Shown here: one piece after another, positions 10,908-62,576 of the stretch | Position numbering within the stretch: the stretch's first letter is position 1 | How the letters are laid out: every line of letters begins with the position of its first letter | Origin: Anaeromassilibacillus sp. An250 | Lineage (GTDB): Bacteria; Bacillota; Clostridia; Oscillospirales; Acutalibacteraceae | Length of the DNA stretch: 64,000 nucleotides | NCBI RefSeq assembly: GCF_002159845.1 | Contig: NZ_NFJK01000001.1 | Location: 248,001-312,000, forward strand | Direction of reading: 5' to 3' | The notes under the pieces: model-generated | What the model was told of the DNA's origin: nothing | Database searches by the model: none | The model's input: only the letters and a program-made list of their open reading frames with translations | Translations under genes and position numbers: made by a program

Positions 10908-10989
10908 GTGTCTTACACCTCTGCTTCCGAAACCGTTCTACGAATCCAATCAACCCGTTGCCATCGGGCAAAAATGAACAAGTTCTATA

Positions 10990-12873: not shown

Positions 12874-12899
12874 AAAAAGAGGGGTTTCCCCCTCTTTTT
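12874..12899. terminator. Bidirectional terminator
   Basis: AAAAAGAGGGG-TTT-CCCCCTCTTTTT: a symmetrical stem with an A-run before and a T-run after. It ends the zinc-ribbon gene on the minus strand and would block transcription from either side. Confidence 0.8.
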
Positions 12900-12927
12900 C
12901 ATCTACCTATTTCCTTAAATGCCGAAC

Positions 12928-13293
12928 TTACTGCGCATCGAATTTACTGCCGCACATATTGCAATAACATGCCTCCGCCGGGTTTTCCGCTCCGCACTTC
13001 TTGCAGATCACTTTACTGCGCAACGCAGAAATCTGATCGTTTACTGCATCCAACTGCTCATACAGGTCGTCGATGGTCGTGATGCATTCATCTGCCAAGT
13101 CCGCGGAATCATTTCCCGTCTTTTTGGCGTCATATATCACCCTGCCCAGGGCTTCAAAGCGCTTGGAAATTTCATTGTTCAGATCCGCCGCGCTCAGCCT
13201 CAGCTTGGAAATATCCACCATCTGGCCCGCTTTTTTGCCAACGGCATTGACTGCTTCTTTTGCATTCACGACGACATCTTCAAAAAGTCCCAT
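12928..13293 (-). CDS. Small helical protein with C-terminal zinc ribbon
   Basis: 121 aa. Residues 1-95 are mostly alpha-helical and coiled-coil-like (KEAVNAVGKKAGQMVDISK, then DLYEQLDAVNDQISALRSK). The end is a four-cysteine ribbon CKKCGAENPAEACYCNMCG. Such 'zinc ribbon domain' proteins are frequent in clostridia without a defined function. ATG at 13293 has GGGAG 9 nt upstream; the GTG two codons earlier is too close to the SD. Single-gene unit between two terminator-like regions. Confidence 0.75.
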   Translation of the reverse strand: MGLFEDVVVNAKEAVNAVGKKAGQMVDISKLRLSAADLNNEISKRFEALGRVIYDAKKTGNDSADLADECITTIDDLYEQLDAVNDQISALRSKVICKKCGAENPAEACYCNMCGSKFDAQ

Positions 13294-13409
13294 TTTCACA
13301 CGCTCCCTTTTTATGATAGTTTGCTCAATTATAGCACCAATTGATTCTGGAAATCAAGGGTTTCCCTAGGAATCTCTTCCAATGTGGATAAAATGCCTTT
13401 GTCCACTTG

Positions 13410-47060: not shown

Positions 47061-48374
47061 ATGTCGACTATGAGATTGGAGCGTGCCGCATTGGATAAAT
47101 TTGTTATTACTGGTGGCAATCGGCTTACCGGAGAGGTAACGATCAGCGGTGCAAAAAATGCCGCTATTGCAATTATTCCTGCTGCAATTCTTTCGGATGG
47201 AGTATGCCGAATTGAAAATATCCCGAACATCACGGATGTGAGTTCGATCACCCGCATTCTATATGATATGGGCGCACAAGTCCGTACAATTGATAAGTCT
47301 ACCCTTGAAATCGACCCCCGTAAAATTCACACCTGCGTAGCGTCTTATGAGCTTGCCAAGCACATCCGTGGATCGTATTATCTGCTTGGTGCCCTTTTGG
47401 GACGCTTTTCTCACGCGGTCGTAACCATGCCTGGTGGGTGCGATTTCGGTGTCCGCCCGATTGACCAGCACCTCAAGGGTTTTGCTGCTTTGGGCGCTTC
47501 CTATAAACTCGACGGCGGTATGGTGGACGTCCGTGCAGAACAGCTGAAGGGCAGCCACATTTATCTCGACGTGGTCTCCGTGGGTGCGACCGTCAATATC
47601 ATTTTGGCGGCGGTGCGCGCGAAGGGCATGACAGTAATCGAAAACGCCGCCAAAGAGCCACATATTGTTGATTTAGCCAACTTTTTGAATTCGATGGGCG
47701 CGGACATCCGAGGCGCAGGTACGGATGTTATCAAAATCTATGGCGTAGAGCATTTGAATGGGACCACCTATTCCATCATTCCCGACCAAATCGAGGCGGG
47801 AACGTATATGGTTGCCGCAGCTGCAACGAGTGGGGATGTCTTAATTAAAAACGTCATCCCCAAGCATCTGGAATCCATCACGGCGAAGTTGGAAGAGATG
47901 GGCGTCGAGGTGACCGAATATGACGATTCTATCCGCGTGCGACGGGAAGGCCCGCTCAATAAATGCAATATTAAGACCATGCCACACCCAGGCTTCCCTA
48001 CCGATATGCAGCCACAAATCGCGGTTTTGCTCTCAATTGCCAATGGGACCAGCATCATCAACGAAAGCGTTTGGGATAACCGCTTCCGTTATATTGAAGA
48101 ACTCAAGCGGATGGGCGCGCAAATTTCCGTTGATGGACGTTTGGCAGTGATCGAAGGGGTTGACCATCTTTCCGCCGCACCGGTAAAAGCGACCGATCTC
48201 CGCGCAGGCGCCGCCATGATCATTGCTGCATTGTGTGCCCAGGGGACTTCTGAAGTAGAGGATATCCAGCACATCGAGCGTGGTTATGAAAATATTGAGG
48301 AAAAATTCCGCAATCTCGGTGCGGATATCAATCGGGTGCATATAGCAGAACCGGTGATCGCACGGGCGATTTAA
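47061..48374 (+). CDS. murA: UDP-N-acetylglucosamine 1-carboxyvinyltransferase
   Basis: 437 aa. First committed step of peptidoglycan synthesis, adding enolpyruvate from PEP to UDP-GlcNAc. Landmarks: GEVTISGAKNAAIAIIPAA, the active-site cysteine loop MPGGCDFGVRPIDQH (the Cys that fosfomycin alkylates is present), and FPTDMQPQ. The reading frame begins with two Met close together; no strong SD was seen, so the exact start is uncertain by a few codons. Followed by walJ and rlmH on the same strand. Confidence 0.95.
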   Translation: MSTMRLERAALDKFVITGGNRLTGEVTISGAKNAAIAIIPAAILSDGVCRIENIPNITDVSSITRILYDMGAQVRTIDKSTLEIDPRKIHTCVASYELAKHIRGSYYLLGALLGRFSHAVVTMPGGCDFGVRPIDQHLKGFAALGASYKLDGGMVDVRAEQLKGSHIYLDVVSVGATVNIILAAVRAKGMTVIENAAKEPHIVDLANFLNSMGADIRGAGTDVIKIYGVEHLNGTTYSIIPDQIEAGTYMVAAAATSGDVLIKNVIPKHLESITAKLEEMGVEVTEYDDSIRVRREGPLNKCNIKTMPHPGFPTDMQPQIAVLLSIANGTSIINESVWDNRFRYIEELKRMGAQISVDGRLAVIEGVDHLSAAPVKATDLRAGAAMIIAALCAQGTSEVEDIQHIERGYENIEEKFRNLGADINRVHIAEPVIARAI

Positions 48375-48434
48375 ACAGAACCTGGAAGGCGGTCCGCAAA
48401 CGCGGGCCGTCCATTTTGTGTTGAAAAAGGTGGG

Positions 48435-49238
48435 GTGCAACCCTTGGCGAGATTTTGTCCGCTTTTTAGCGGAAGCAGCGGAAATTCGTATTACATAGGG
48501 TCTTCTCACGCGGGGATTTTGATCGATGCAGGACGTTCTGCAAAGCAGATGGTACAAATGTTGGATACCTGCGGGCTGGAACCCAAGGCCGTCCAGGCCA
48601 TCTTTATCACCCATGAGCATTCCGATCATATCAAAGGATTGCGTGTATTTGCATCCCGTTTTCATATTCCTGTATACGCTTCTGCTGGAACACTTTCGGC
48701 CCTGTTGCAGATGGGATGTCTGGAGGGGGATTTCCCTGTTGAGGAAATTTCTCCGGACGGCGTTATGTGCGCCGGTATGTTGATCCAGCCCTTCCGTACG
48801 CCGCACGACAGCGCAGAAAGCGTTGGATACCGGGTATTTACCGCAGATGGACGCAGCGCGGCCGTCTCGACGGATCTGGGCTATATGACGGATACCGTGC
48901 GGGCAGCGTTATGTGGAGCCGATTTGGTTGCCATTGAGTCGAACCACGATATTGGCATGCTGCAAAATGGACCTTATCCCTATCCTCTGAAACGGCGGAT
49001 TTTGTCGCGAACCGGACATTTGAGCAACCTTGCCTGCGCTGATGAGTTGTATAGCCTTGCTGAACGCGGGACAACCCGTTTTGTTTTGGCACATTTAAGC
49101 GCAGAAAATAATACGCCGGAACTTGCTTATCAGACGTCCGTCTGTTCCCTCTCCCTCTGTGGGATGAAAGAAGGAACGGATTATACGCTCTATGTAGCGC
49201 CACGTGAAAATAGCACGGGGAAAACCATTCTTTTTTGA
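48435..49238 (+). CDS. walJ: MBL-fold nuclease WalJ (YycJ)
   Basis: 267 aa. RFCPLFSGSSGNSYYIG start, metal site THEHSDHIKGL, TPHDSAESVGY and LVAIESNHD. YycJ/WalJ proteins are metal-dependent 5'-exonucleases linked to mismatch repair and cell-wall control. In Bacillus the gene is in the walRK operon next to rlmH; here walRK is absent but the rlmH neighbour is kept. The start is a GTG; a TTG three codons later is possible. Confidence 0.92.
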   Translation: MQPLARFCPLFSGSSGNSYYIGSSHAGILIDAGRSAKQMVQMLDTCGLEPKAVQAIFITHEHSDHIKGLRVFASRFHIPVYASAGTLSALLQMGCLEGDFPVEEISPDGVMCAGMLIQPFRTPHDSAESVGYRVFTADGRSAAVSTDLGYMTDTVRAALCGADLVAIESNHDIGMLQNGPYPYPLKRRILSRTGHLSNLACADELYSLAERGTTRFVLAHLSAENNTPELAYQTSVCSLSLCGMKEGTDYTLYVAPRENSTGKTILF

Positions 49239-49245
49239 GGGATCT

Positions 49246-49725
49246 ATGCTCAATATTCAACTGCTTTGTATCGGAAAATTGAAAGAATCCTATTGGCGGG
49301 AGGCTTGTGCAGAGTATGCAAAAAGGCTTTCCGCTTTTTGCCGTTTTTCCATTATCGAGTTGCCAGAAAGCCGCCTTCCAGAGACGCCCTCCCCTGCGCA
49401 GGTCACAGCAGCCCTTCAAACCGAAGGGGAAAAAATTTTAGCCGCTGTGGGAAACGCCCCGCTTATCGCGCTTTGTATTGAAGGGAAGGCCCTTTCTTCG
49501 GAAGCGCTCTCCCTTAAAATCGATTCCATGGCTGTAAACGGAGCCAGTAAGCTCTGTTTTGTCATTGGAAGTTCGTTTGGGTTGAGCGATTCTGTAAAAT
49601 GTGCGGCCAATTTGCGCTTATCTATGTCGCCCATGACCTTCCCGCATCAGTTGGCGCGTGTGATGCTCTGCGAACAGATTTATCGCGCTTTCCAGATTTT
49701 AAACCATGGGAAATACCATAAATAA
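49246..49725 (+). CDS. rlmH: 23S rRNA (pseudouridine1915-N3)-methyltransferase
   Basis: 159 aa SPOUT methyltransferase: IQLLCIGKLKESYWREA, IALCIEGKALSSEALS, FVIGSSFGLSDSVK (knot) and the C-terminal LARVMLCEQIYRAFQILNHGKYHK. It methylates helix 69 of 23S rRNA on assembled ribosomes. 7 nt after walJ. Confidence 0.97.
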   Translation: MLNIQLLCIGKLKESYWREACAEYAKRLSAFCRFSIIELPESRLPETPSPAQVTAALQTEGEKILAAVGNAPLIALCIEGKALSSEALSLKIDSMAVNGASKLCFVIGSSFGLSDSVKCAANLRLSMSPMTFPHQLARVMLCEQIYRAFQILNHGKYHK

Positions 49726-49830
49726 TTCCGGTTTGGCAGAAGTATGCTTTTGGGGAGGTTCTGGCCCGGCTCCATGTGATCTGCATCTTCACTTTCAGAC
49801 GGTCTTTCCTGTGACGGCTATTTATAAAAG

Positions 49831-49887
49831 GAAGCCTTTGCCATTTCCTGCTTCTATTGGGGGAATGGGCAAAGGCTTTCTTTTTTA
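49831..49887 (+). terminator. Terminator after rlmH
   Basis: GAAGCCTTTGCCATT/AATGGGCAAAGGCTTTC stem with loop and T6. Also between convergent rlmH and the feoB 3' part. Confidence 0.8.
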
Positions 49888-49896
49888 ATTTTTCTA

Positions 49897-50629
49897 TTAT
49901 GCCAAGCCAAGCATGCGCGCAGTTGTCGCCACTAAGAAACAAATCAACATCCCAATACCTGCTGGGACGGCAAAGGAAATGGCCGTCCATTTTAGGCTTT
50001 TTGTCTCCTTTCCAATAGTCATACAGGTCGTAGAACAGGGCCAGTGCATCAGCGAGAACAAAATGGTGCACACTGCGGTTAACCACGTCCATCCATTGTC
50101 GACCAAAAGCGCGTGCAATTGCGTGAGGTCACTGATATCTATGAGGCTCCCTGTCGCCATGTATGTCATAATAATAATGGGTACAACAATTTCATTAGCT
50201 GGGAACCCAAGAATAAATGCGAACAGGATCACCCCATCCAGTCCCAGAAGCTGTGCAAAGGGATCTAGGAAGGCGGCACAATACGCCAACAAACTTGCAT
50301 TGCCATATGGAATGTTTGCCAGTAACCAGATCAGCAACCCGGCGGGGGCTGCTACTACCGCCGCCCTGCCTAAGACAAACAAGGTCCGGTCGAAAATCGA
50401 GCGGACAATCACCTTCCCGATTTGCGGCCGGCGGTACGGCGGGAGTTCCAATGTAAACGAGGAAGGGATGCCTTTCAGAATAGTCGCAGATAGCAAGCGT
50501 GAAACCAAAAAGGTCATCCCGATTCCCAATACAATCACACCCATCAGGAGCAGGGTGGAAAGCACAGAACCACCTATTCCGGCTGTGCCAATAAAGAACA
50601 TGGAGATGATTGCAATAATAGTAGGAAAT
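49897..50629 (-). pseudogene. feoB: 3' part of feoB, cut off by the integrated element
   Basis: About 243 codons of the FeoB membrane domain: FPTIIAIISMFFIG, then GIPSSFTLELPPYRRPQ and GFPANEIVVPIIIMTYM, ending in about six helices. It begins exactly after the ATTT core at 50626-50629, in the same phase as the 5' part at 55461-56885, so excision would give one frame of about 717 codons. As it stands only a TTG at 50709 could start it. It encodes the C-terminal half of the ferrous iron channel. Confidence 0.95.
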
Positions 50630-50645
50630 GCACCACCAGACAAAC
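50608..50645. other. attL of the serine-recombinase element
   Basis: feoB sequence to the left, core AAAT (50626-50629, plus strand), and element arm GCACCACCAGACAAAC (50630-50645) to the right. The arm is the inverted partner of the one at attR. Confidence 0.8.
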
Positions 50646-50680
50646 GGCAAACTTTCGCTAAACAACGTATGGAATGTGTT

Positions 50681-52327
50681 TTATAGGGATTCTGTCCCAT
50701 TGGATGCAAGGTCTAAAAACACATGCAAGTTTTTGCCGTCCCACACAATCCTCTGCACTAGCAAATGAATCAAGCTGCGTTTTTCCTGCACAGACAGCGA
50801 ACGCAACAGACCTTTCAGGTCGGACAGGCTGCCTGCCAATCGTTCGATCTCTAAATGTAAGCCCGTGATGGAGTTGCGCTTCATTTGTAGCTGCTCGCGT
50901 TCCTGCAATAAGCTGGACCGTTCTTGCTCCAAAGCCTCTATCCGGTTGTTGACATGCTGTATGAATGCGGCGCCAACACCATCTTGTGAAAGCGTATGTA
51001 CCAGATGGCTAATTGCATCGTCACACCTGTGGAGCTTTGTTTCAATACAAGCTGGAGGGTCCTCCCGTGTTTGCTTTTGTAAGTCCCTTTTCAGAGCTTC
51101 CAGCAACTTATAAATTCCTGGGCTTTCCTCCGCGAGATTCACCAGATATGCAAATACCATAGCATCTGCCTGTGAGCCGCTGATGTTTTGACAATCGCAC
51201 AAGCAGACGCCACCGCGCAACTTATTGCCGCATATATAATCGAATTCACCGCCGGCCGTCCCTGGGTGGGAGCGCCTTTTGGCAAACATCCGGCTGCCAC
51301 ACTTGCCGCAAATAATCCTCCCAGACAGCAGAGAAGATTCATTATGTATGTTTGCGGGCTTTTTCCCAGTTGGAATGCTGTCCTGTAGGATGCCCTGGAC
51401 CGCGACCCACTTTTTCCCTGGAATTTTCCCTCTATGCCGCCCTATCGCGACGATCCATTGATCCATAGATTGGCGTGGCGCATGTTTCTTTTTGTAATCA
51501 CGCTTGTTATAGGCAAGCAACCCATATCTGCCCTTACAGTCTTTTTCTTCAAAACAGACATTTGCATGTTGTGCGGTAAAGTAGCTGAAAGCCTCTTTAT
51601 CCGCAATGCAATAGACAGGATTGTGCAAGATTTCTTTGATTCCGAGGAGGGAATACCACGTCCCGTTGCGGGATTGGATTCCTTGCCGGATCAAGTATTT
51701 GCTCACGCCGGTTAGACTATGTAACTCCAAATACTTTTCAAAGATCGTTCCCACAACCTGCAACTCGTCAGGAGATTCTTTCAACCTACAAGAGATCTTG
51801 ATCTTCCCATCTACAAGCATCTCCTGCTGTTTTTCAGAGCGGTAGCCTGTTGGAGGCGTCCCTCCCAACCAGCGCCCTGTGCGGGCCAACATGCACATAT
51901 TATCCCGCACACGCTCTGCAATGGTCTCACGCTCCAACTGTGCAAACACAGAGGCAATATACATCATTGCTTTCCCCATTGGCTTTGATGTATCAAATTC
52001 CTCCTTGATGCAGATAAAGGAAATATTTCGATCGTTTAGTTCCTCTATAAGCGCAGAGAAATCGCTGACACTACGGCTAATCCGGTCGAGCCGGTAACAA
52101 ACGATATAATCGGGTTTCCTTTCCCGAATATCCTGCAACATGCGTTGGAATTGCGGCCGAATGGTATCTTTCGCGGAAAAGCCCTCATCCTCATAGATTG
52201 TTATGGCATCTTCAACCACATCTGGAAATTTAGATCTAATATATTGTTTGCACATTTCAATTTGGTTTTCGACGCTTTCCCCTTTGCCTGTATAGACGGA
52301 TTTGCGGCTATAGATGAAAAAACGCAA
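50681..52327 (-). CDS. Large serine recombinase (site-specific integrase)
   Basis: 548 aa. N-terminal resolvase domain with the nucleophile in FFIYSRKSVYTG, YRLDRISRSVSDFSAL and ERETIAERVRDNM; a recombinase domain (about 165-280); a zinc-ribbon with CGKCGSRMF and ICGNKLRGGVCLC; and a coiled-coil C-terminus (KLHRCDDAISHL to EREQLQMKR). Complete and probably active. The TTG start has SD GGGGGTGA. Its end is 51 bp from attL, the usual place for a serine integrase gene. Confidence 0.95.
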   Translation of the reverse strand: MRFFIYSRKSVYTGKGESVENQIEMCKQYIRSKFPDVVEDAITIYEDEGFSAKDTIRPQFQRMLQDIRERKPDYIVCYRLDRISRSVSDFSALIEELNDRNISFICIKEEFDTSKPMGKAMMYIASVFAQLERETIAERVRDNMCMLARTGRWLGGTPPTGYRSEKQQEMLVDGKIKISCRLKESPDELQVVGTIFEKYLELHSLTGVSKYLIRQGIQSRNGTWYSLLGIKEILHNPVYCIADKEAFSYFTAQHANVCFEEKDCKGRYGLLAYNKRDYKKKHAPRQSMDQWIVAIGRHRGKIPGKKWVAVQGILQDSIPTGKKPANIHNESSLLSGRIICGKCGSRMFAKRRSHPGTAGGEFDYICGNKLRGGVCLCDCQNISGSQADAMVFAYLVNLAEESPGIYKLLEALKRDLQKQTREDPPACIETKLHRCDDAISHLVHTLSQDGVGAAFIQHVNNRIEALEQERSSLLQEREQLQMKRNSITGLHLEIERLAGSLSDLKGLLRSLSVQEKRSLIHLLVQRIVWDGKNLHVFLDLASNGTESL

Positions 52328-52530
52328 ACACTCACCCCCACAAGCTTATCGGACAAAGGCACTTGCATATCGGTCCCTCTAAGCTCTCTTTCTCCCTCAA
52401 TCCCCTCCCTATCCCTGTAATTTCTCCTTCCCTATTTATATCCGCCCCTTTCCAGCTTGATGCCTATTCATGGGGCCTTAACCCGTATAGAAACTGCACG
52501 TTCCAATGCAAACCGAAGGGCCTAATTAAG

Positions 52531-52572
52531 AAAAAACGCGCTTACAGGTTCAATACCTGTAAGCGCGTTTTT
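52531..52572 (-). terminator. Terminator of the malic enzyme operon
   Basis: Perfect 18-bp stem AACGCGCTTACAGGT/ACCTGTAAGCGCGTT with TCAAT loop, A-run and T-run; works on both strands. Confidence 0.93.
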
Positions 52573-52601
52573 ATGGATAAAACAATCTTTTTCTAATGCC
52601 A

Positions 52602-53774
52602 TTAAATACGGGCTACGCCGGATGCACGAGCCGCTTCTGCGACTGCTTTTGCAACTGCTTTGCCAACATTCCGATCCAGCGCGCTGGGGATGATGTAATC
52701 CGGGGACAGCTTGTCGTCGGTTACAAAAGACGCGATTGCTTTCGCTGCCGCAATCTTCATCTCATCGTTAATGTCGCTCGCACGTACGTCCAAAGCGCCA
52801 CGGAAAATGCCCGGGAAAGCCAAGACGTTGTTGATCTGGTTCGGGAAGTCGCTGCGTCCAGTACCCACCACAGCAGCGCCAGCCTCTTTTGCCAAATCGG
52901 GCATAATTTCGGGCACCGGGTTGGCCATCGGGAACAGGATGGGGTTGGGCGCCATAGACTTGACCATCTCCGGGGTCACGCAGCCAGGAGCGGATACACC
53001 GATAAACACATCGGCGCCTTTGAGGACTTCCGCCAAAGTCCCTTTGCGGCACTCTTTGTTGGTAATGGCAGCCATCTCTTCTTTTTCAGGATTCAGATTC
53101 TCGCGGCCCTGATAGATAGCGCCGTGACGGTCACAGAGGACAACGTCCTTCAGGCCCATTGCAATGAGCAGGCGGATAATTGCGATACCCGCAGCACCCG
53201 CTCCACTGGTAACCACGCGGATTTCATCAATCTTTTTGCCAGTCAGCTTCAAAGCGTTGAGCATAGCGGCCAGTGTGACTACAGCTGTGCCATGCTGGTC
53301 ATCGTGGAAAATCGGAATGTCGCAGCATTCCTTAAGTCTCCGCTCAATCTCAAAGCAGCGAGGTGCAGAAATATCCTCCAGGTTAATACCGCCAAAACTG
53401 CCAGCCAGCAGGCGGACTGTATTGACAATATCGTCAACTTCCTTGGAGCGGACGCACAGCGGAATGGCATCCACATCGCCAAAGGCCTTGAACAGCGCGC
53501 ATTTACCTTCCATAACCGGCATGCCGGCTTCCGGGCCAATGTCGCCCAAGCCCAAAACAGCAGTACCATCGGTGACCACCGCTACCAGGTTCGAACGGCG
53601 GGTCAGCTCATAGCTCATGTTAACATCTTTCTGAATTTCCAGGCAAGGCTGGGCAACGCCCGGGGTATAAGCCAAGGAGAGATCGTCACGCGTTTCCAGG
53701 GGAGCACGGCAGATCACCTCAATCTTACCTTTCCATTCCTTATGCTTTTTGAGAGATTCAGCAGCGTAATCCAT
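52602..53774 (-). CDS. NAD-dependent malic enzyme
   Basis: 390 aa short bacterial malic enzyme: malate + NAD to pyruvate + CO2 + NADH. Motifs: LSLAYTPGVAQPCLEI, AVLGLGDIGPEAGMPVMEGKCALFK, HDDQHGTAVV (metal and catalytic region) and the Rossmann loop VTSGAGAAGIAIIRLL. No phosphotransacetylase-like extension. ATG at 53774 matches the family start MDYAAESLKKHKEWKGK; an ATG at 53798 overlaps the upstream stop. It is the second gene of a two-gene operon inside the feoB element. Reads intact. Confidence 0.94.
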   Translation of the reverse strand: MDYAAESLKKHKEWKGKIEVICRAPLETRDDLSLAYTPGVAQPCLEIQKDVNMSYELTRRSNLVAVVTDGTAVLGLGDIGPEAGMPVMEGKCALFKAFGDVDAIPLCVRSKEVDDIVNTVRLLAGSFGGINLEDISAPRCFEIERRLKECCDIPIFHDDQHGTAVVTLAAMLNALKLTGKKIDEIRVVTSGAGAAGIAIIRLLIAMGLKDVVLCDRHGAIYQGRENLNPEKEEMAAITNKECRKGTLAEVLKGADVFIGVSAPGCVTPEMVKSMAPNPILFPMANPVPEIMPDLAKEAGAAVVGTGRSDFPNQINNVLAFPGIFRGALDVRASDINDEMKIAAAKAIASFVTDDKLSPDYIIPSALDRNVGKAVAKAVAEAARASGVARI

Positions 53775-53797
53775 TGTTTTCCAATCCTTTCCAATCA

Positions 53798-54751
53798 TTA
53801 TATTTCCAATTGAGAAATAACTTGCTTCAATGCATCAGCACTCTTGTGCAGCAGATCTTCCTCATCTTTGGTCAGCGGAGGAACGACAGCACGGCGAATT
53901 CCCTGCGCCCCCACCACAAACGGAAGGCTCAGGCATACATCGTTAATGCCATACTGGTTGTGAATCATAGCGGAAACCGTCATCACCGAATCCGTATCCC
54001 GCAGGATGCACTCGCAAATGCGGCGAACCGAAAGGGCAATTGCATAGAATGTAGCGCCCTTCAAAGCAATGACCTGAGCGCCTGCTGTGCGGACATCCTC
54101 TTCAATTTCCTTCAGTTCGGTTTTCCCGCAGCGGTTGTTCTGATCACAAATATATGTACAATATTTGCTCATTTCCATGCCTGCGATTGTGGTCAGGGAC
54201 CACGGGATCATAGAAGTATCACCGTGCTCGCCAAACACATAAGCATGAATATTCTTGGAATTAAGGCCCACATGCTCTGCAAGGCGGGAACGGAGACGTG
54301 CCGAATCCAACATGGTTCCGGAACCAAACACCTGGTTTTCAGACAGGTTGGTGTTTTTCAGGATAGCATACGTGATAATGTCCACCGGGTTGCTAACCAC
54401 TACATAAATCGCATCCGGAGCATAGCGGGTAATCTGCGGCATAACAGACTTGATGATGTTCACATTCGCTTGCGCCAGATCAATACGGGTTTGGCCGGGC
54501 TTCCGCGCCAAACCAACGGTGACAATAACCACATCGGAATCTACTGCTTCTTCATAGTCGCCCGCATGAATATTTACCGGTGCGCAGAAAGGCGTTCCCT
54601 GGAAGATATCCATAGCTTCGCCCTTGGCCTTTTTGTCGTTGATATCGATCAGCAAAATCTCAGAAGCCATGCCGTCAATAGCCAACGTATAGGCGATAGT
54701 AGCTCCCACGTTTCCTGTTCCCAATATGGTGATTTTCTTGCCTTTTTTCAT
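53798..54751 (-). CDS. Lactate/malate dehydrogenase family, possibly malate dehydrogenase
   Basis: 317 aa. NAD Rossmann fold ITILGTGNVGATIAYTLA, catalytic loop GLARKPGQTRIDLAQANV, NPVDIITY, DSARLRSRLAEH and the active-site histidine in VFGEHGDTSMIPW. Overall it resembles L-lactate dehydrogenase, but the loop residue before K-P-G is Arg where LDHs have Gln (position 102 in the usual LDH numbering). Arg there is the classical malate/oxaloacetate determinant, and the operon partner is malic enzyme. First gene of the operon. Confidence 0.88.
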   Translation of the reverse strand: MKKGKKITILGTGNVGATIAYTLAIDGMASEILLIDINDKKAKGEAMDIFQGTPFCAPVNIHAGDYEEAVDSDVVIVTVGLARKPGQTRIDLAQANVNIIKSVMPQITRYAPDAIYVVVSNPVDIITYAILKNTNLSENQVFGSGTMLDSARLRSRLAEHVGLNSKNIHAYVFGEHGDTSMIPWSLTTIAGMEMSKYCTYICDQNNRCGKTELKEIEEDVRTAGAQVIALKGATFYAIALSVRRICECILRDTDSVMTVSAMIHNQYGINDVCLSLPFVVGAQGIRRAVVPPLTKDEEDLLHKSADALKQVISQLEI

Positions 54752-54929
54752 ACAGTTTTACTCCCTTGAATAGTGATGCATGGGACGGTTTTGATCTGCC
54801 ATTTGCAAAAATTCGTCTTCTCCATAAAGAGCATCCTTTCGATTTTTCCATCCGGCAAAAAGCTTTAACCGTCATCTGGGAGAAAGCAAAACAGAAAGCC
54901 GCCTTCTCCCCCATGCTAATATATTAAAA
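54752..54929 (-). other. Untranslated leader of the dehydrogenase operon
   Basis: About 170 nt between the -10 box and the start of the dehydrogenase, with no recognised structure and no gene. Confidence 0.4.
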
Positions 54930-54958
54930 ATTATACACGACAATCTCGCCTTTGTAAA
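54930..54958 (-). promoter_or_regulatory. Promoter of the dehydrogenase-malic enzyme operon
   Basis: Minus strand: -35 TTTACA (54958-54953), 17-bp spacer, perfect -10 TATAAT (54935-54930). Confidence 0.75.
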
Positions 54959-54999
54959 GAATTTTCCCGAATATTCCACCATATTCGAGAAAATTCTTT
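54956..54999. promoter_or_regulatory. 19+6+19 bp palindrome overlapping the -35
   Basis: AAAGAATTTTCcCGAATAT (54956-54974), loop TCCACC, ATATTCGaGAAAATTCTTT (54981-54999): one mismatch in 19. It begins inside the -35 box and extends upstream, the position of an operator or activator site. No T-run follows on either strand, so a terminator is unlikely. Confidence 0.75.
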
Positions 55000-55114
55000 G
55001 GCCAGTGTACATTTCCGAACATAGGCTTCACCCCAAACCAAATGGGACTGCATAATGGCGCCAAGGGCCTGCACGCATACATACTAACCCACGCTACAGA
55101 AAGGAAGGAGTTTC

Positions 55115-55324
55115 ATGCGAAAAAACCATGTACAGAGAATCATAGGAGCCCCTCTCAGTGGAGAGGCCATCCGCTGTCTAATCAACAAGGTTAATGGGTT
55201 CTACTTTGAGATAATCGAGCGGAAGTTGAACCAATCCCGCCTTTCTTCCCGTCAAAAGATTGCCATTATCGATCAAATTCTCGCTTCTCTAAAGGCACAT
55301 GAAGGAAATAACGCAAGCAAGTGA
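55115..55324 (+). CDS. Small unknown protein of the feoB element
   Basis: 69 aa, basic and helical (IRCLINKVNGFYFEIIERK, then SSRQKIAIIDQILASLKAHE), no membrane segment. Strong SD GGAAGGAG supports translation. It is the only plus-strand gene of the element, 120 bp from attR. The family is not recognised. Size, charge and position would suit a recombination directionality factor, which is speculation. Confidence 0.65.
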   Translation: MRKNHVQRIIGAPLSGEAIRCLINKVNGFYFEIIERKLNQSRLSSRQKIAIIDQILASLKAHEGNNASK

Positions 55325-55443
55325 TGTTTCCCATACGCCTTTTCCTTTGTTCTCATTGCCTATTAATTTCCTAAACCTACGTCCCCAATGTGTTTGGCAT
55401 GTCCTAGATGCGCTGCGTCCTACCTCTGAAAGGATTTGTTTCC

Positions 55444-55484
55444 CCTTTGTGTGGTGGCGCAAATCGACCGTTGCACGGTACAAA
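55444..55484. other. attR of the serine-recombinase element
   Basis: Element arm CTTTGTGTGGTGGCGC (55445-55460), core AAAT (55461-55464), then feoB sequence encoding N-G-R. The arm matches the inverted attL arm in 13 of 16 positions. Confidence 0.8.
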
Positions 55485-56885
55485 GGAATTGGTGATCATC
55501 GCGATCAACCGTTCTCTGGGAGAATCAATGATCCGGCAGCCGACAATGCCTGCTGCGTTACATCCGAATCCCATACACATCGTTAATGCCTGTTTTCCGC
55601 AGGCATGCGCCTTTTTGAAGTACTTATCCAAATTAAATGCCACACGGGGAAGGTAGCCCAGGTCCTCCAATAAAGTGAACAAAGGGAAAAAAATAGCCAT
55701 CGGCGGAAGCATCACGGATACCACCCAAGCCAATACCCGGTAAACCCCTTCCACCAGCATGCTCCGCAACCAGGCCGGCACGCCTATGGCTATGAACCCA
55801 TCCATCAGACGGTCTTGCAACCAAAACAAACCTTCAGAAAGGAGTTCCGATGGATAATTGGCACCTGTGATCGTCAGCCAGAAGATCACGCCCAACAGAA
55901 GGAGCATGACCGGGAACCCCGTCCATTTGCTTGTCAAAATGCGGTCGATTTTTTGGTCGCGCAGCTCGCGCTTTGTTTTTTCATGAACGACTACGCCGGT
56001 GCAGACTTTTTCCGCTGTGCGGACAATGCTGGATACAATCTGGTCACGGAGGTCCTCCTGGGAGATGCCCCGGCTGTGTAAACACTGTTTTGCCTCTTGT
56101 AATTTTCGCACAATCTCTTCTTTTTCCAACAAATCAAACCCTAGCGCATCATTGAGGGAACGAAGTAGGGAATCGTCATGATCCAATAGACGCAGAGAGA
56201 GCCAACGCGCGTTCAAGGACTCCCCGTAGATCGTTGCCACAGAGGGCTGCAACATGGCTATGGCATCTTCGATGGGGCGGATATACGAAACTTGGATGGA
56301 AGATGGTGCGTCTTTGCCATCCAGTTGACGGCATACGGCGTCCATCAAATCGTCCAGCCCTTTGTGGGACCGTGCGGCCGCTGGAACAACGGGAACCCCT
56401 AAGCGTTCCGACATCCGTTCCAGATCGAGGCGGATTCCCTTGCGTTCTGCTTCATCCATCAAATTCACGCAGACGACCACCCGGTTGGTAATCTCCAATG
56501 CCTGCAAGACTAAATTCATATTGCGCTCTAGGCAGGTGGCGTCGCACACAACCACTACGGCGTCCGGATGCCCAAAGCACAAGAAGTCCCTTGCCACCTC
56601 TTCCTCCGCAGAATGCGCCATTAGGGAATAGCACCCGGGAATGTCCACCAGGATAAAAGGACGCCCCCGGTATGTACATGTCCCTTGCGCGTTGGTCACC
56701 GTCTTGCCAGGCCAGTTTCCTGTATGTTGGTTCATTCCCGTCAATTCATTGAATACGGTACTTTTCCCTACATTCGGATTCCCAGCCAAGGCGATCACAC
56801 GGTCCTCCCCGCTCTGCCTTTTTATCACCAATCCCATATCCACCGCTTTGATTCCTGTGGACCTGCTGGTCAGCCCCAATTTCAT
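55461..56885 (-). pseudogene. feoB: 5' part of feoB, interrupted by the element
   Basis: About 475 codons: G-domain with GNPNVGKSTVFNELTG, the switch NWPGKTVTNAQG, DIPGCYSL and NLMDEAE; then a helical spacer and the first membrane helices, ending at RLIAMITNSFVPCNGRF. From there the frame enters the element, adds about 19 foreign residues and stops at 55404. The product would lack the C-terminal half of the iron pore. ATG at 56885 fits the family start MKLGLTSRSTGI. Partner gene feoA lies upstream. Confidence 0.95.
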
Positions 56886-56960
56886 CACCCCATTTGTCAT
56901 TTGGATATACAACGGGAGGCGGGAAGCCTCTCCCCGCCTCCCGGCAAGCAGGCAGCAAGC

Positions 56961-57200
56961 TCATCCATTGCTCGCTACCAAAATATTGGAAGAATCCTCC
57001 GACCGCAGCGCGATCAACGCGCCGCGAATCCGATAAGCCACAGGGTCTCCTGCAGGGCTTTTTTGAACGCACTCGACCTCAGTCCCTTCAATTAGGCCAA
57101 TGTCCTGTAACCTTCTGCGCATACTTCCTCTGGACAGCAGCGATGCTACACGCGCACGCTCCCCCACCTGTAAATTGGCCAGGGAATCTATCTGAATCAT
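56961..57200 (-). CDS. feoA: FeoA, ferrous iron transport accessory protein
   Basis: 79 aa SH3-like FeoA: DSLANLQVGERARVASLL, RRRLQDIGLIEGTEVECVQKSPAGDPVAYRIRGALIALR. It supports FeoB. ATG at 57200 has SD GAGGTG at about 9 nt; a GTG four codons upstream overlaps the SD. Divergent from a DtxR-type regulator, so iron or manganese control is likely. Confidence 0.95.
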   Translation of the reverse strand: MIQIDSLANLQVGERARVASLLSRGSMRRRLQDIGLIEGTEVECVQKSPAGDPVAYRIRGALIALRSEDSSNILVASNG

Positions 57201-57301
57201 AAGTGTATTCACCTCAAAATAAGTATTAGGATGTGGAAACTTTCTTTCCTGCTGCTAATATATGCGCTATGGAAGGATATGTTCCAGGGGGAGGTGTGGG
57301 C

Positions 57302-57721
57302 ATGGATGTGCCGTCCAAATTCCATACGCAAAAGGGATACGAATTGGCCGAACAAAATAAGCTGACGGCCGCTATGGAAGATTATTTGGAGATGATTTGC
57401 CGGCTAAGCCGGGAAGAAGGATATACGCGCGTCCATCTTTTGGCCAAACATCTCAATGTCAAGCCGTCATCTGCATCCAAAATGGTGGATCATTTGAAAG
57501 AGTCCGGCCTTGTCCAGGCGGAGCGGTACGGATATATCCGTCCAACGCCGGAGGGAATCGCTCTGGGAGACTATCTCCTATACCGGCACAACCTGCTAAA
57601 CCAGTTCCTTTGCTATATCAATCATTCGGACAACGAACTGGAACAAGTGGAGCGTATCGAGCATTTTATCGATGAACGGACCATCCGTAACATTGCCATT
57701 TTTTTGGAAAGCGCCCTGTAA
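57302..57721 (+). CDS. DtxR/MntR-family iron- or manganese-responsive regulator
   Basis: 139 aa. Winged HTH (AMEDYLEMICRLSREEGYTRVHLLAKHLNVKPSSASKMVDHLKESGLV) and a dimerisation/metal-binding half (RHNLLNQFLCYINHSD.., EQVERIEHFI), two-domain MntR-like size. Divergent from feoAB with a 100-bp shared intergenic region, which makes feoAB the likely target. ATG at 57302 with GGGAGG. Confidence 0.9.
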   Translation: MDVPSKFHTQKGYELAEQNKLTAAMEDYLEMICRLSREEGYTRVHLLAKHLNVKPSSASKMVDHLKESGLVQAERYGYIRPTPEGIALGDYLLYRHNLLNQFLCYINHSDNELEQVERIEHFIDERTIRNIAIFLESAL

Positions 57722-57883
57722 ATCAGATCATTCTTCGTTTTTTAAGCGGTTCATGCTATAATAACTTCACCGGGAATGGTTTTGGTCAATGGCTTGCTGT
57801 TCCCCTTCCTCGTCCGATGGGAGGGCATGGAACCATGGTCGATCGTTCAGGAGTCCTGTTTTGGATAAGGTTCTTTGGCCTTT

Positions 57884-57896
57884 GATATGTTATAAT
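57884..57896 (+). promoter_or_regulatory. Extended -10 promoter of the HAD gene
   Basis: TG at 57888-57889 one base before TATAAT (57891-57896); no good -35. A similar TGC-TATAAT lies at 57754-57762. Confidence 0.45.
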
Positions 57897-57936
57897 AGAC
57901 TGGATGGGAAAATAAATTGCTAAGGAGGAAAGTGAA

Positions 57937-58548
57937 ATGATTCGAAATATTGTTTTTGATATGGGAAATGTGTTGATTGACTACCAACCGATGAAATATA
58001 CCCGGCGTTTTTTTCCGGACCCTTCTGAAGCTGCTCAAGTTTGTACGGAACTCTTTGGCGGCCCTGAATGGCCACTATTGGATCAAGGGACCATCGAACC
58101 GCAGGCTGCTCTCCGCCAGATCTGCGAACGGCTGCCAGCCTCCCTGCGTGCCCGTACAGAAGAGCTTTTTTGCCACTGGTTCGATCAACTGACCATCATC
58201 CCAGAGACCAACGCGCTCGGCAAACAAATGAAGGAAAACGGATACCGCCTATATATCCTCTCGAATGCCGCCTCCAGCTTTTATCAATACTGTTCCTGTA
58301 TCCCAATCTTCCCGCTGTTGGACGGCTGTATCGTCTCCGCCGACGAAAAGTTGGTGAAACCTGACCCAGCCATTTTTCAACTTCTTTGTGAGCGCTATCA
58401 TCTAATCCCAGAGGAATGTTTCTTCATTGACGACCGTCTCGAAAACATCGAAGCAGCAAGCAATTTGGGGATGGCGGTTCATCAATATCAAATGGATGCG
58501 GATGCTTTACAAAATGCGTTGCGCAAAGCTGGCGTATCTTTGAAATAG
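57937..58548 (+). CDS. HAD-family phosphatase (YihX-like)
   Basis: 203 aa, HAD subfamily IA. Motif I is VFDMGNVLID (Asp nucleophile, the D-x-G-N form of YihX-type sugar-phosphatases), motif II ILSNAAS, motif III with KPDPAIF, motif IV FIDDRLENIEAA. Probably removes phosphate from a sugar phosphate; the substrate is not known. SD TAAGGAGGAA. Confidence 0.9.
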   Translation: MIRNIVFDMGNVLIDYQPMKYTRRFFPDPSEAAQVCTELFGGPEWPLLDQGTIEPQAALRQICERLPASLRARTEELFCHWFDQLTIIPETNALGKQMKENGYRLYILSNAASSFYQYCSCIPIFPLLDGCIVSADEKLVKPDPAIFQLLCERYHLIPEECFFIDDRLENIEAASNLGMAVHQYQMDADALQNALRKAGVSLK

Positions 58549-58559
58549 TCCATCGTTCC

Positions 58560-58596
58560 ATGCGGCGGGGAAAATGAGCGGACCCGCCGCATTTTT
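58560..58596 (+). terminator. Terminator of the HAD gene
   Basis: ATGCGGCGGG/CCCGCCGCAT stem with A-rich loop and T5. Confidence 0.88.
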
Positions 58597-58849
58597 GCTG
58601 CCTAAAATTCCCTCTTAAATGCACATACGAAAAAGTCCACAATTTCATAAATAGGATGCTGAAAAGATTTTATCGTCTGATTTTTGAAAATAGAGTTCTT
58701 GCTGCTGTTCTTCCGATGCAAACATGGTACAATAAGAAAAGGTTAAGAAGAGGCAGGGCTTATAAAAATTTTACGGGAAAAACTCGTCTTTTTCCCTTCC
58801 AAATCCATCTATACTATATCCCCCAATTTACATGAAAGAGTTGTGATTT
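58597..58849 (+). other. Intergenic region before the MBOAT gene
   Basis: About 250 bp, AT-rich, no gene. GGTACAATAAG near 58724 may be a -10 region, but no matching -35 was found. Confidence 0.35.
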
Positions 58850-60319
58850 ATGGTCTTCTCCAATCTGTTTTTTTTATTTGTTTTTCTTCCCCTCAATTTG
58901 CTATTCTACTCCTTGGCAAAAACCATCCGCACGCGGAACATCATTATGCTCCTGTTTTCCCTATTCTTCTATGCATGGGGGGAACCCGTCTATGTATTCC
59001 TCTTAATTGGGATGGCCTTCGCCGATTGGTTCTTCGCCCGCTTAATCCAAATAGGTAGGGATCGAAGAAGTCCTGCTTTAGCCAGAGGCGCTTTGATCGG
59101 CTCCCTGGTGGTCAGCTTAGGGCTTCTCGGGGCCTTTAAATATACAGGCTTCCTTGCGGAAACACTCCATCAATTGACAGGGTTTCCCTCCGTCATCCCT
59201 CAAATTGCGTTGCCGATCGGCATATCATTCTACACATTCCAATTGATTTCCTATGTGGTCGACGTGTACCGCGGAGAAGTGAAAGCGCAAAAGAAATTTT
59301 GGCTGCTATTGATGTATGTCAGTTTGTTCCATCAATGTATTGCTGGGCCAATTGTCCGCTACCAGGATGTCAACCAGGAAATCCTCTCTCGAAGGGCGAC
59401 AAAAGCGGAGATCAGCCGCGGAATCAGCCGGTTTTGCACCGGATTGGCAAAAAAAGCGCTCCTTGCCAATAGCTGCGGCGCCTTAGCCGATACCCTGATC
59501 CTCTCCGATGCAGTTGCCTCAAATGCTGCTTCTCTTGCGCAAAATCTGGCCACTATACAAGCGCGCCCTGTGCTCTCCCTCTGGCTGGGGGTCTTTGCCT
59601 TCATGCTTCAGATTTATCTCGATTTTTCCGCCTACTCCGACATGGCCATCGGCATGGGACTGATGATTGGATTCCATTATAAGGAAAACTTCGATTATCC
59701 ATATCTCTCCCGTTCAGTCTCCGAATTCTGGCGCCGTTGGCATATCTCCCTTGGCTCCTTCTTCCGCGATTATGTCTACATCCCGCTGGGCGGCAACCGC
59801 CACGGTGTTCCCCGCACCATTGCCAACCTCTTTTTTGTCTGGTTCCTGACGGGATTGTGGCATGGCGCCAGCTGGAATTTTGTACTCTGGGGGCTTTATT
59901 TCTTCGTATTTATCGCAGCAGAACGTCTCTTCCTTGGGAGGATATTGGAACGTATCCCCGTCATATTTTCGCATCTTTACCTCTTGATTGTCGTGTTCTT
60001 TGGCTGGGCGATCTTCCGTTTCCGGCAACCGGTGTTACTGAACGCCGTATTGGGCGGCATGTTTGGCGCAAATGGGAACCCGCTGACCAATTTTGAATTC
60101 AACACCGTTTTCTTGAACTATGTATTCTTCCTGATTGCGGCGGTGATCGCCACCACCCCCTTGCTCAAGGCTTTGGGGGAGAGGTTCTCTTCCGGCGGCC
60201 TACGGACAGCTTATGCGTATAATGCACTGCAAATGTTTGTCCCTCCGCTTCTGCTTTTGCTCTCCACGGCCGCCTTAGTGGGCAACAGCTATAATCCATT
60301 CCTGTATTTCCAGTTTTAA
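58850..60319 (+). CDS. MBOAT O-acyltransferase (AlgI/DltB-like)
   Basis: 489 aa with about 11-12 membrane helices. Catalytic region LTGLWHGASWNFVLWGLYF with the MBOAT histidine; RYQDVNQEI, DFSAYSDMAIGMGLMIG and EFWRRWHISLGSFFRDYVYIPLGG are AlgI family landmarks. It transfers acyl (often acetyl) groups across the membrane to an extracellular polymer. The next gene encodes the usual DHHW/AlgJ partner. The polymer is not identified here. Confidence 0.94.
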   Translation: MVFSNLFFLFVFLPLNLLFYSLAKTIRTRNIIMLLFSLFFYAWGEPVYVFLLIGMAFADWFFARLIQIGRDRRSPALARGALIGSLVVSLGLLGAFKYTGFLAETLHQLTGFPSVIPQIALPIGISFYTFQLISYVVDVYRGEVKAQKKFWLLLMYVSLFHQCIAGPIVRYQDVNQEILSRRATKAEISRGISRFCTGLAKKALLANSCGALADTLILSDAVASNAASLAQNLATIQARPVLSLWLGVFAFMLQIYLDFSAYSDMAIGMGLMIGFHYKENFDYPYLSRSVSEFWRRWHISLGSFFRDYVYIPLGGNRHGVPRTIANLFFVWFLTGLWHGASWNFVLWGLYFFVFIAAERLFLGRILERIPVIFSHLYLLIVVFFGWAIFRFRQPVLLNAVLGGMFGANGNPLTNFEFNTVFLNYVFFLIAAVIATTPLLKALGERFSSGGLRTAYAYNALQMFVPPLLLLLSTAALVGNSYNPFLYFQF

Positions 60320-60333
60320 GGGGAGGTATATTC

Positions 60334-61692
60334 ATGAAAAAGAATCTTTCCTTCCACTCTAGGAAAATTTTGCTTTTTTTCCTATCCTTGGGCCTATTGA
60401 CCGTGATCTCATGGATCATCCCCTTGCGCCCAACCTATTCGGAGTTCGAAAAGCGGGAACTGACCAAATTCCCCTCTTTTAGCCTCCAGGCGCTCTTCGA
60501 CGGCAGCTACTTCGATCAAATCGACCTTTGGTTCTCCGATACTTTCCCTTTTCGCGATACATTCATCACCGGCAACAGCTATCTAAGACAGCTATACGGG
60601 CTTCATCCGGTACAGGTGAGCGGGGATGTGGAAGAGGGCGATGCCATTCCCTCCGCGCCTTCGCGGCCGTCTTCCTCCCCGGAATCCTCTTCCGCACCGG
60701 AAACGGCCGAGAGCACTTCTGCACCAGAGGAACCCTCTTCCGCACCGGATGTTTCTTCGGAAGCGCCGGCCCCAGAAAAAGATGTCACCGGGGAGGTCAC
60801 GCAGAGCCTTGGAGCCGTGCTGATCGTTGGGGACAGCGGTTATGAATACTACAACTTTTCCAAAGATGTAGCCGATCAATATATCGGGATGCTCAACCAT
60901 ACCGCGCAAACCCTTGAGGGCACAGCACAAGTTTACGACATGGTCATCCCCACCAGCATGGACATCATGCTGCCGGATAGTTTCCGGCAGGGCCTCAATA
61001 CCTCTTCACAAAAGGACGCCATTGCGTATATCAGCGGTTCCCTTACCCCTTCCATCAAGTCGGTACAGATCTACGATACGCTAAAGGCCCATTCGGATGA
61101 ATATATCTATTTCCGCACAGACCATCACTGGACCGCGCTGGGGGCATATTACGCCTATCGGTCGTTTGCAGATGTAAAGGGAACCACACCGTTGGAGCTT
61201 TCTCAATGCGAGAAAAAGGAGTTTAGCGGGTTCCTGGGAGCGTTCTATTCCGATACCAATAAGAATCCCGCCTTGGCACAGAATCCGGATACCGTGATGG
61301 CCTACGTCCCCCCGGGGAATATCAAGATGCAGTATACCGACCGAAACGGCAACACATACAATTGGCCGTTGATCTCGGATGTGACCGACTGGGCAACCTC
61401 CACCAAATACAGCACCTTCATCGGCGGGGACAATCCTTATACCATCATCCAGAATTCCGACCTGACAGACGGTTCCTCCTGCCTGGTGATTAAAGAATCG
61501 TTTGGAAATGCCTTTATCCCCTTCCTAGCAGCCAACTACCAAACGGTCCATGTGATTGATTACCGCTATTGGAACGGCAACATCCAGGACTTTGTCAAAA
61601 CAAACGGTGTGCAAGATGTCCTATTCTTGAACAACGTATCCGCTACCCGGAATTCTTCTCTGGTTGGAAAAATGGCCACCCTTACAAAATAA
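60334..61692 (+). CDS. DHHW/AlgJ-type surface protein, partner of MBOAT
   Basis: 452 aa. One N-terminal anchor (ILLFFLSLGLLTVISWIIPL), YSEFEKRELTKFPSFS, then FSDTFPFRDTF, a Ser/Pro/Glu/Ala-rich linker (about 105-150, repeats of SSAPE type), and an SGNH-like catalytic domain with VGDSGYEYYNF, FRTDHHWTALGAYY (DHHW) and the end IKESFGNAF. It is thought to complete polysaccharide O-acetylation outside the membrane. 14 nt after the MBOAT gene with SD GGGGAGG. Confidence 0.9.
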   Translation: MKKNLSFHSRKILLFFLSLGLLTVISWIIPLRPTYSEFEKRELTKFPSFSLQALFDGSYFDQIDLWFSDTFPFRDTFITGNSYLRQLYGLHPVQVSGDVEEGDAIPSAPSRPSSSPESSSAPETAESTSAPEEPSSAPDVSSEAPAPEKDVTGEVTQSLGAVLIVGDSGYEYYNFSKDVADQYIGMLNHTAQTLEGTAQVYDMVIPTSMDIMLPDSFRQGLNTSSQKDAIAYISGSLTPSIKSVQIYDTLKAHSDEYIYFRTDHHWTALGAYYAYRSFADVKGTTPLELSQCEKKEFSGFLGAFYSDTNKNPALAQNPDTVMAYVPPGNIKMQYTDRNGNTYNWPLISDVTDWATSTKYSTFIGGDNPYTIIQNSDLTDGSSCLVIKESFGNAFIPFLAANYQTVHVIDYRYWNGNIQDFVKTNGVQDVLFLNNVSATRNSSLVGKMATLTK

Positions 61693-61782
61693 TGGCCAGC
61701 ATGTATATCCATTGATCGAGGAGTAAAAAATAAAAGCATCTCTAGAATTGCAAATAATATAAATAAGTTTATTTTCAATCAC

Positions 61783-61811
61783 TTGACATTATCTAGATTA
61801 TGATATATAGT
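61783..61811 (+). promoter_or_regulatory. Promoter of the SGNH hydrolase gene
   Basis: Perfect -35 TTGACA (61783-61788), 17-bp spacer, -10 TATAGT (61806-61811). Confidence 0.8.
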
Positions 61812-61844
61812 ATTAAAAACTAGATGATGTTTAGAGGTGCTTTT

Positions 61845-62576
61845 ATGCCTAATAAGATCTGTGTATTTGGTGATTCGGTGGCAAAAGGTGTTGTCTTCGA
61901 TCACGTCAAACAGAAATATAGCCTTCTTAAAAATGGTTTTGCCGATCAATTGGCTAATATCTTCTCGCTTTCTGTGACCAACTATGCAAAATTCGGATGT
62001 ACGGTCACAAAGGGATTGGAACTTGTAAAGAAGCATCTGGACAAGATTCCGGACTATGACTATATCGTCTTAGAATTTGGCGGAAACGACTGTGATTTTG
62101 ATTGGGCTGAGGTATCCAAAGCGCCAACTGCTCCCCAACGGAGCAAAACGCCATTGCACTCTTTCATTGGCACTTATCGCGAGATGATCCGGCTAATCCG
62201 TGAAAATGGCGGCGTACCTGTGTTGCTTTCCCTGCCCCCAATTGATGCGGAGCGGTATTTCCAGTGGATTACACAGGGGTTGGATTCTGACGCCATCCTG
62301 CGTTTTTTGGGCGATGAAGCGCATATTTACCGTTGGCACGAAATGTACAATATGGCGGTATATCGCGTTGCAAACGAAGAAAACGTCCCGCTGATCGACA
62401 TCACCTCGGACTTTTTAGAGATGTGCCACTATCAATCCTGCTTCTGTGCGGATGGCATCCATCCTAACGAGAAAGGCCATGCCGCTATCACCAAGCAAAT
62501 CGTCCAATTTGTGCAGGCATCCCCAGAAAAAGCGCTGGCACATTCCCCCTCCGCCCAGTCGTTGGCCTGTGGTTGA
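61845..62576 (+). CDS. SGNH/GDSL-family hydrolase
   Basis: 243 aa, no signal peptide. Block I VFGDSVAKG, block III EFGGNDCDFDW, block V DGIHPNEKGH (Asp-His). It probably hydrolyses acyl esters. It follows the MBOAT/DHHW pair but has its own strong promoter and is cytoplasmic, so a direct link is uncertain. ATG at 61845 with AGAGGTG; an ATG at 61824 lies upstream without SD. Confidence 0.88.
   Translation: MPNKICVFGDSVAKGVVFDHVKQKYSLLKNGFADQLANIFSLSVTNYAKFGCTVTKGLELVKKHLDKIPDYDYIVLEFGGNDCDFDWAEVSKAPTAPQRSKTPLHSFIGTYREMIRLIRENGGVPVLLSLPPIDAERYFQWITQGLDSDAILRFLGDEAHIYRWHEMYNMAVYRVANEENVPLIDITSDFLEMCHYQSCFCADGIHPNEKGHAAITKQIVQFVQASPEKALAHSPSAQSLACG

Follow-up and report, generated by a model that had tools for sequence, protein, structure and literature searches.

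The 44-bp palindrome that reaches into the -35 box of a cargo promoter in the window (the whole 64,000-nucleotide stretch of DNA analysed here) is best read, albeit tentatively, as the variant that one lineage has made of an older, functional region upstream of a promoter, with phased A/T tracts. Comparison with related loci shows the region upstream of the -35 to be probably old; the near-perfect symmetry is present only in the window's copy and appears to be new. The element that carries the palindrome splits feoB and is a more interesting find than the palindrome itself.

Results

The mobile element (50630–55464, no strand assigned) measures 4,835 bp with one of its two ATTT core copies counted in. 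It lies between a 5' part of feoB (55461–56912, minus strand; PF02421 and PF07670), whose frame continues inside the element to 55404, and a 3' part (49897–50629, minus strand; PF07664 and PF07670), with core copies at 50626–50629 and 55461–55464. When the feoB flanks are joined, they form one reading frame of 2,181 bp that contains a single stop, the interruption falling within PCNGRFPT, between F and the second P. A large serine recombinase with a TTG start is encoded at 50681–52327 on the minus strand (PF00239, PF07508 and PF13408). The initial annotation had proposed a mobile element with a recombinase, and this was borne out, the cargo and a serine recombinase lying between the two feoB parts. 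Among genomes of the same genus, feoB lacks the insert in G002 and G003 (720-aa frames) and is contiguous with two frame breaks in G001.

Related loci were collected by a genome scan with an alignment of four recombinases, which matched 187 relatives, the best 80 being kept. A feoB piece is present in 59 of these best 80 of 187 loci, and in 54 of them the 3' end of the recombinase gene lies at most 700 bp from it. In the 21 of 80 loci that have no feoB piece, recombinase identity is 38–43% in 16 and 57–78% in five (L087, L091, L095, L098 and L141). Relatives with different cargo lie next to feoB pieces in many Clostridia and make up a candidate family of skin-like elements. At four loci (L088, L117, L125 and L139) the recombinase gene points with its 3' end towards a feoB 5' part that is on the other strand, about 2.1 kb away in the case of L117; in these the element or a flank is inverted relative to the others. 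Locus L065 holds a feoB element (2426–15209) in which no more than about 35 residues of the feoB 5' part survive at the far junction and whose interior has sugar ABC transporter-like and dehydrogenase-like genes, the names being our reading of the genes. At L066 (9089–17244) lactate dehydrogenase (LDH), fumarase-like and heterodisulfide-reductase-like genes, named from their translations, sit beside the feoB 3' part and the recombinase, i.e. another organic-acid cargo.

Around ATTT in the window, the attP dyad pairs at 19 of 24 positions. In the 10 elements with both ends, window included, the attachment dyad at its best offset has 15–21 of 24 pairs and lies above all 200 shuffles in 8 of the 10, L097 and L126 being the exceptions. 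This dyad is the palindrome that the family tends to keep, and by eye it is unlike the 44-bp sequence. Titles and opening lines of abstracts among the literature matches listed name no feoB-splitting element, and no paper in the literature searched brings feoB, a serine recombinase and integration together; most subscription journals lie outside the scope of both statements.

The cargo operon of the initial annotation proved to consist of two genes: an L-lactate dehydrogenase of the malate/lactate dehydrogenase superfamily (53798–54751, minus strand; TIGR01771 at 354 bits, above the cut-off, with PF00056 and PF02866) and a malic enzyme (52602–53798, minus strand; PF00390 and PF03949), the latter followed 3' by a terminator-like hairpin from the terminator scan (52532–52572, minus strand). 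The promoter scan placed TTTACA-17-TATAAT, which reads into these two genes, at 54930–54958 on the minus strand, matching 11 of 12 consensus positions and ranking joint best of the 18 promoter-like sites in 48000–62000. Because 16.6 such sites are expected in shuffles of this interval, the match alone is weak proof of a promoter, and conservation in the relatives is the better evidence: CTTTACAA...TATAMT and the GGGGGAG leader start are kept in four of four relatives (L073, L121, L146 and L154). The claimed consensus promoter therefore holds as a near-consensus one, of sigma-A type and conserved.

The leader start of the operon (54875–54917, minus strand) has GGGGGAG in all five copies and GGGGGAGAAGGCG in four of five. 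A strong 5' hairpin is predicted in three of the five (-18.6 to -20.7 kcal/mol in the window, L146 and L154) and is weak in L073 and L121. Rfam gave no match at the window's leader; over 49500–57300 the only match was below threshold, at the terminator hairpin (E<=1), and seven relatives yielded four tRNAs only, all in L073.

The palindrome occupies 54956–54999 (inverted-repeat search, no strand assigned). Its arms, 54956–54974 and 54981–54999, are 19 nt each and 95% complementary, are separated by a 6-nt spacer (54975–54980) and have their sole mismatch at 54967/54988, so that both the position and the geometry of the 19+6+19 bp inverted repeat described earlier are exact. The reported overlap with the -35 was likewise confirmed and amounts to the TTT of the hexamer (54956–54958). 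The stem has 24% G+C and a longest T run of 3. When the 363-bp intergenic region was shuffled 400 times with dinucleotides preserved, its score of 16 was never equalled (best shuffle 10), and six shuffles of the whole window reached a maximum of 11. The palindrome is less exceptional against real sequence than against shuffles, as long inverted repeats are not rare here: five in the window score at least 14, the others being judged mostly terminators; 104 do so in the 1.30 Mb formed by the 80 related loci and the window, 62 of the 104 without a run of five T; and a score of at least 16 is reached in 8 of the 347 upstream intergenic regions of the 80 recombinase loci.

The combination of LDH (79–89% identity) and malic enzyme (at least 90%) was found as cargo in five of the best 80 loci (L073, L083, L105, L121 and L146). 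A further locus, L154 (89%), has the operon and no feoB piece in its 10-kb stretch. Since the sequences of L083 and L105 begin inside the LDH gene, the promoter region can be compared only in L073, L121, L146 and L154. The palindrome is present in none of these four (0 of 3 feoB elements, L073, L121 and L146; 0 of 1 for L154) and is absent from four remoter LDH loci (L155–L158, 63–80% identity). Loss of the palindrome in related elements, which the initial annotation had named as a refuting result, is therefore what we see, 0 of 4 keeping the symmetry, and the view of it as a characteristic operator of the element is not supported. With up to 3 mismatches the palindrome occurs in 1 of 398 genomes drawn from the same family, namely its own, in one copy, and its own genome has no second core within the same limit. 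A search for the half-site elsewhere in that genome, also proposed earlier, returned four further matches that differ from it at 2 or 3 positions and do not form dyads, against two matches for the reversed control pattern. Viral contigs held no LDH relative and no exact palindrome core. We also considered an inserted small repeat and rejected it, the palindrome being single-copy in the genome and the intergenic regions of the relatives being alike in length and related in sequence. Across the -35 of L146 lies another inverted repeat, a perfect one of 10 bp, and in L073 and L121 weak dyads touch the -35 with a score of 6, a value attained by most shuffles.

The proximal arm upstream of the -35 (54959–54974, minus strand) is identical at 12, 10, 7 and 9 of 16 positions in L073, L121, L146 and L154, respectively (p <0.0001, 0.004, 0.095 and 0.022), and the distal arm (54981–54999, minus strand) at 11, 10, 12 and 2 of 19 (p 0.004, 0.023, 0.010 and 0.86). 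Aligned in this way, the proximal arm shows its relatedness to the other copies more clearly than the distal one. When the region was cut 28 bp from the -35, the inner part gave 19/28 (L073) and 17/28 (L121) and the outer part 9/22 and 7/22, respectively, a cut that assigns six distal-arm bases to the proximal side; the reading of the distal arm as the window's own, which rested on it, was dropped once the exact borders showed that the distal arm resembles three relatives. In the window's register 18 of 19 positions pair in the window, as compared with 9/19 in L073, 6/19 in L121, 8/19 in L146, 0/19 in L154 and about 5 in shuffles. The window's pairing was reached by 0 of 5000 shuffles and that of L073, the sole relative clearly above shuffles, by 106 of 5000.

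The palindrome reads GAATTTTCTC GAATATGGTG GAATATTCGG GAAAATTCTT, a 10-bp repeat of A/T tracts. Over the 50 bp upstream of the -35 (54959–55008, minus strand), where a shuffle test places these tracts in helical phase, A/T steps recur with a period of 10–10.75 bp to an extent reached by 10 of 2000 shuffles in the window and by 37 (L073), 6 (L121), 48 (L146) and 285 (L154, weak) of 2000 in the relatives; the statistic was picked after the 10-bp GAAT repeat had been seen in the window, and the real test is that in the relatives, which are homologues. Other 50-bp segments were mostly unremarkable, with exceptions at -25 in the window and in L154 (p 0.01 each) and at -100 (p 0.05) and -75 (p 0.028) in L146. 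Of 75 control promoters, 3 reached p<=0.025 and 13 reached p<=0.1. Within the 44 bp alone the phasing is weak (257 of 5000 shuffles, and 236 of 5000 of those that keep the symmetry). On these grounds the phasing at about one helical turn in all four feoB-element copies (window, L073, L121 and L146) counts as support rather than proof.

With respect to possible regulators, CodY was rejected as a reader of the palindrome, the window's own genome having no PF06018 match (as a control, 2 of 14 genomes matched). Rex is a usual regulator of NAD-linked dehydrogenases, and the host has a Rex-type N-terminal domain (PF06971, 81.9 bits, above the cut-off). Its operator is reported as an 18-bp dyad, TTGTTAAN4TTAACAA (PMC8457756); Rex was rejected at the palindrome, whose best fit is 9 of 14 consensus positions. 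A Rex-like match of 11/14 lies at 54912–54930, just behind the -10 (12 of 300 shuffles as good). A match of 11/14 also lies behind the -10 in L121 (9 of 300 shuffles as good), the LDH promoter region of L154 has one of 10/14 (28 of 300), and in those of L073 and L146 the best are 9/14 and 8/14, no better than shuffles. Control of the operon by Rex through a site other than the palindrome is possible, judging from these matches. An iron regulator of the feo locus was discarded too: in the stretch from feoB to a DtxR-type gene, nothing but a hairpin and a 75% dyad was found, neither of them like the palindrome in sequence.

A 69-aa protein (55115–55324, plus strand), candidate recombination directionality factor, is encoded divergently from the cargo operon, at the feoB 5' end of the elements. 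It belongs to a small family that carries no curated name. Its relatives show 32–50% identity (tblastn), and at E<1e-3 its profile matched 26 of the best 80 recombinase loci, 8 of which had served as seeds for the profile; the matches in L144 and L149, which have no feoB piece, may be spurious. The structure model is a two-helix hairpin (mean pLDDT 81), and because it has no helix-turn-helix, the protein as modelled is an unlikely reader of the palindrome. The initial annotation had named it, along with the recombinase, as an exception to the lack of an obvious regulator in the element; it is also present in elements without the palindrome. As a DNA-binding regulator it was rejected in that the window's protein has no Pfam or NCBIfam match; members of its family give weak matches to Pfam Unstab_antitox (best 6e-4, 3 of 16 members) and PHROGs (best 0.0051, 2 of 16). 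The best solved chain is 2rno_A, a putative DNA-binding protein (E 0.52), with no fold match at E<=0.001.

That an inverted repeat is kept in position ahead of the 69-aa gene could not be established: among 27 regions a score of 13 is reached only in the window and L072, against 20 of 347 in the background. The repeat of L072 (2118–2166) is a different one, with 20-bp arms, 2 mismatches and no T run, 99 bp upstream of the gene. The sigma-E motif is ATA-N17-CATACAAT. It is found in full upstream of the 69-aa gene in L072, L073 and L146 (0 of 300 shuffles each) and in part in L121, L153, L125 and L106 (1–5 of 300); upstream of the window's own gene 113 of 300 shuffles did as well, and most of the 27 regions were not significant. 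That the sigma-E -35 contains ATA is also stated for Clostridioides difficile (PMC3789822). The host genome has SpoIVA and SpoIIID.

Discussion

In our preferred reading, to which we give somewhat less than an even chance, the promoter would operate via its -35 and -10 boxes, which are conserved, together with phased A/T tracts upstream, the tracts acting as UP-element-like or curved-DNA help to RNA polymerase. The symmetry would be recent: a quasipalindrome template switch, or a few substitutions, would have produced it from an ancestor that was already symmetric in part. It need not be read by any protein, and any operator role would be private to this host. The ancestral state of the symmetry is seen in no close relative. 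Template switching that makes the arms of inverted repeats alike has been published (PMC7202029, PMC8604942). Here a template switch and stepwise substitutions are equally possible, the single copying event being less obvious because the distal arm also resembles three relatives. The derivation of both arms from related sequence weakens this reading and strengthens that of an operator, since stepwise gain is what selection for an operator would give, and the 10-bp repeat over the -35 of L146 could mean operator turnover.

The close rival is an operator: one dimer, or two, of a protein encoded by the host would bind the palindrome over the -35 and repress or activate the LDH–malic enzyme operon, in this lineage only. 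We consider this possible but doubtful. The position over the -35, a symmetry that no local shuffle attained and the related origin of both arms, from which the symmetry may have been gained stepwise, all argue for it, as do the dyads touching the -35 in other LDH-type elements, although the weak ones of L073 and L121 score no higher than most shuffles. Operators in single copy do exist: a TetR site of Clostridium thermocellum is described as a palindrome that has no second copy in the genome (PMC8457756). The operator is, however, absent from every comparable relative and has no second core in its own genome; moreover, Pfam and NCBIfam recognise no regulator gene in the element, CodY is not in the genome, and Rex, which is, fits the palindrome poorly.

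A different proposal, unlikely in our judgement, makes the element a skin-like one that is excised in development: feoB would be split while growing cells express the LDH–malic enzyme cargo, and in the mother cell the 69-aa protein, which may be the excision factor, would make the recombinase excise the element and so restore FeoB for sporulation. The palindrome, placed between the element's two control regions, would couple the divergent promoters in this lineage. In C. difficile, feoA and feoB are entered in a mother-cell table with 0.05 each, and feoA with a sigma-K promoter (PMC3789822). The idea of a feoB element that is excised during development is thus to be taken as a live hypothesis rather than as a result.

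It is improbable that the palindrome works as RNA, that is, that transcripts reading through in the feoB direction would fold, stall, terminate or be cleaved at it and so shield the cargo promoter. Read in the feoB/LDH direction, the stem is paired throughout, with G-U at the mismatch (-26.1 kcal/mol, z -6.8), and on the other strand the mismatch is C-A (-20.3 kcal/mol), but any transition mismatch gives G-U on one strand or the other. Furthermore, the stem of low G+C is followed only by UUUAC, with no U run, which makes a poor intrinsic terminator; the palindrome is absent from the list of terminator-like sites, and the hairpin is not kept in the three relatives that also lie inside feoB and are exposed to read-through in the same way.

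Chance, meaning a selectively neutral inverted repeat in a region without a role even as an upstream promoter element, is a very remote explanation: equally strong repeats do exist in the upstream regions counted above (8/347), but both arms resemble the relatives beyond shuffles in most comparisons, and the A/T phasing lies at the same position in four feoB-element copies. Least credible of all is a binding site for the element's own 69-aa protein or recombinase, to which the location inside the element, flanked by the divergent 69-aa gene on one side and by the cargo operon on the other, lends some appeal, as the 69-aa family also occurs in elements without the palindrome, its model has two helices and no helix-turn-helix, and the presumed sites of the recombinase are at the element ends and of other sequence.

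The palindrome thus illustrates that an eye-catching promoter dyad can be lineage-specific while its relatives share the promoter, the phased A/T tracts and the leader start. If the hypothesis of excision is true, widespread feoB-splitting cargo elements would extend programmed gene interruption, as in sigK, gerE and spsM, to iron transport, and the feoB elements, if they are a real family, would combine exchangeable metabolic cargo with a candidate directionality factor.

Among known upstream promoter regions are UP elements and those with phased A-tracts (curved DNA). The preferred reading of a promoter-upstream region shares with them A/T tracts about one turn apart that immediately precede the -35 in a near-consensus promoter; it differs in that the region here is also a near-perfect 44-bp palindrome, and its promoter-boosting activity is putative. 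Phased A-tracts had no match in the literature searched. In relation to the Rex operator system (PMC8457756), the host has the Rex-type domain and the cargo includes a dehydrogenase, and it is the palindrome itself that is mismatched. As in the quasipalindromes perfected by template switching (PMC7202029, PMC8604942), an imperfect repeat of the relatives (9/19 in L073) became near-perfect; unlike in those, the switch here is putative, and both arms still resemble the relatives.

Elements within genes of spore formers include gin in gerE, yin in yabG and SP-beta in spsM, of which gin and SP-beta are reported to rearrange during sporulation (PMC5595907, PMC10747680, PMC4191935); the element described here differs from them in its target gene, feoB, and in its cargo. 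In the skin element of C. difficile, the 72-aa CD1234, described in its source as having no database relatives, is a directionality factor under sigma-E control (PMC5025042). Like this skinCd (recombinase CD1231 and CD1234; PMC5025042), the feoB element splits a gene and encodes a large serine recombinase along with a small protein for which databases hold no relatives, whereas it splits feoB rather than sigK, carries metabolic cargo, and has a putative excision in which the role of the 69-aa protein is likewise putative.
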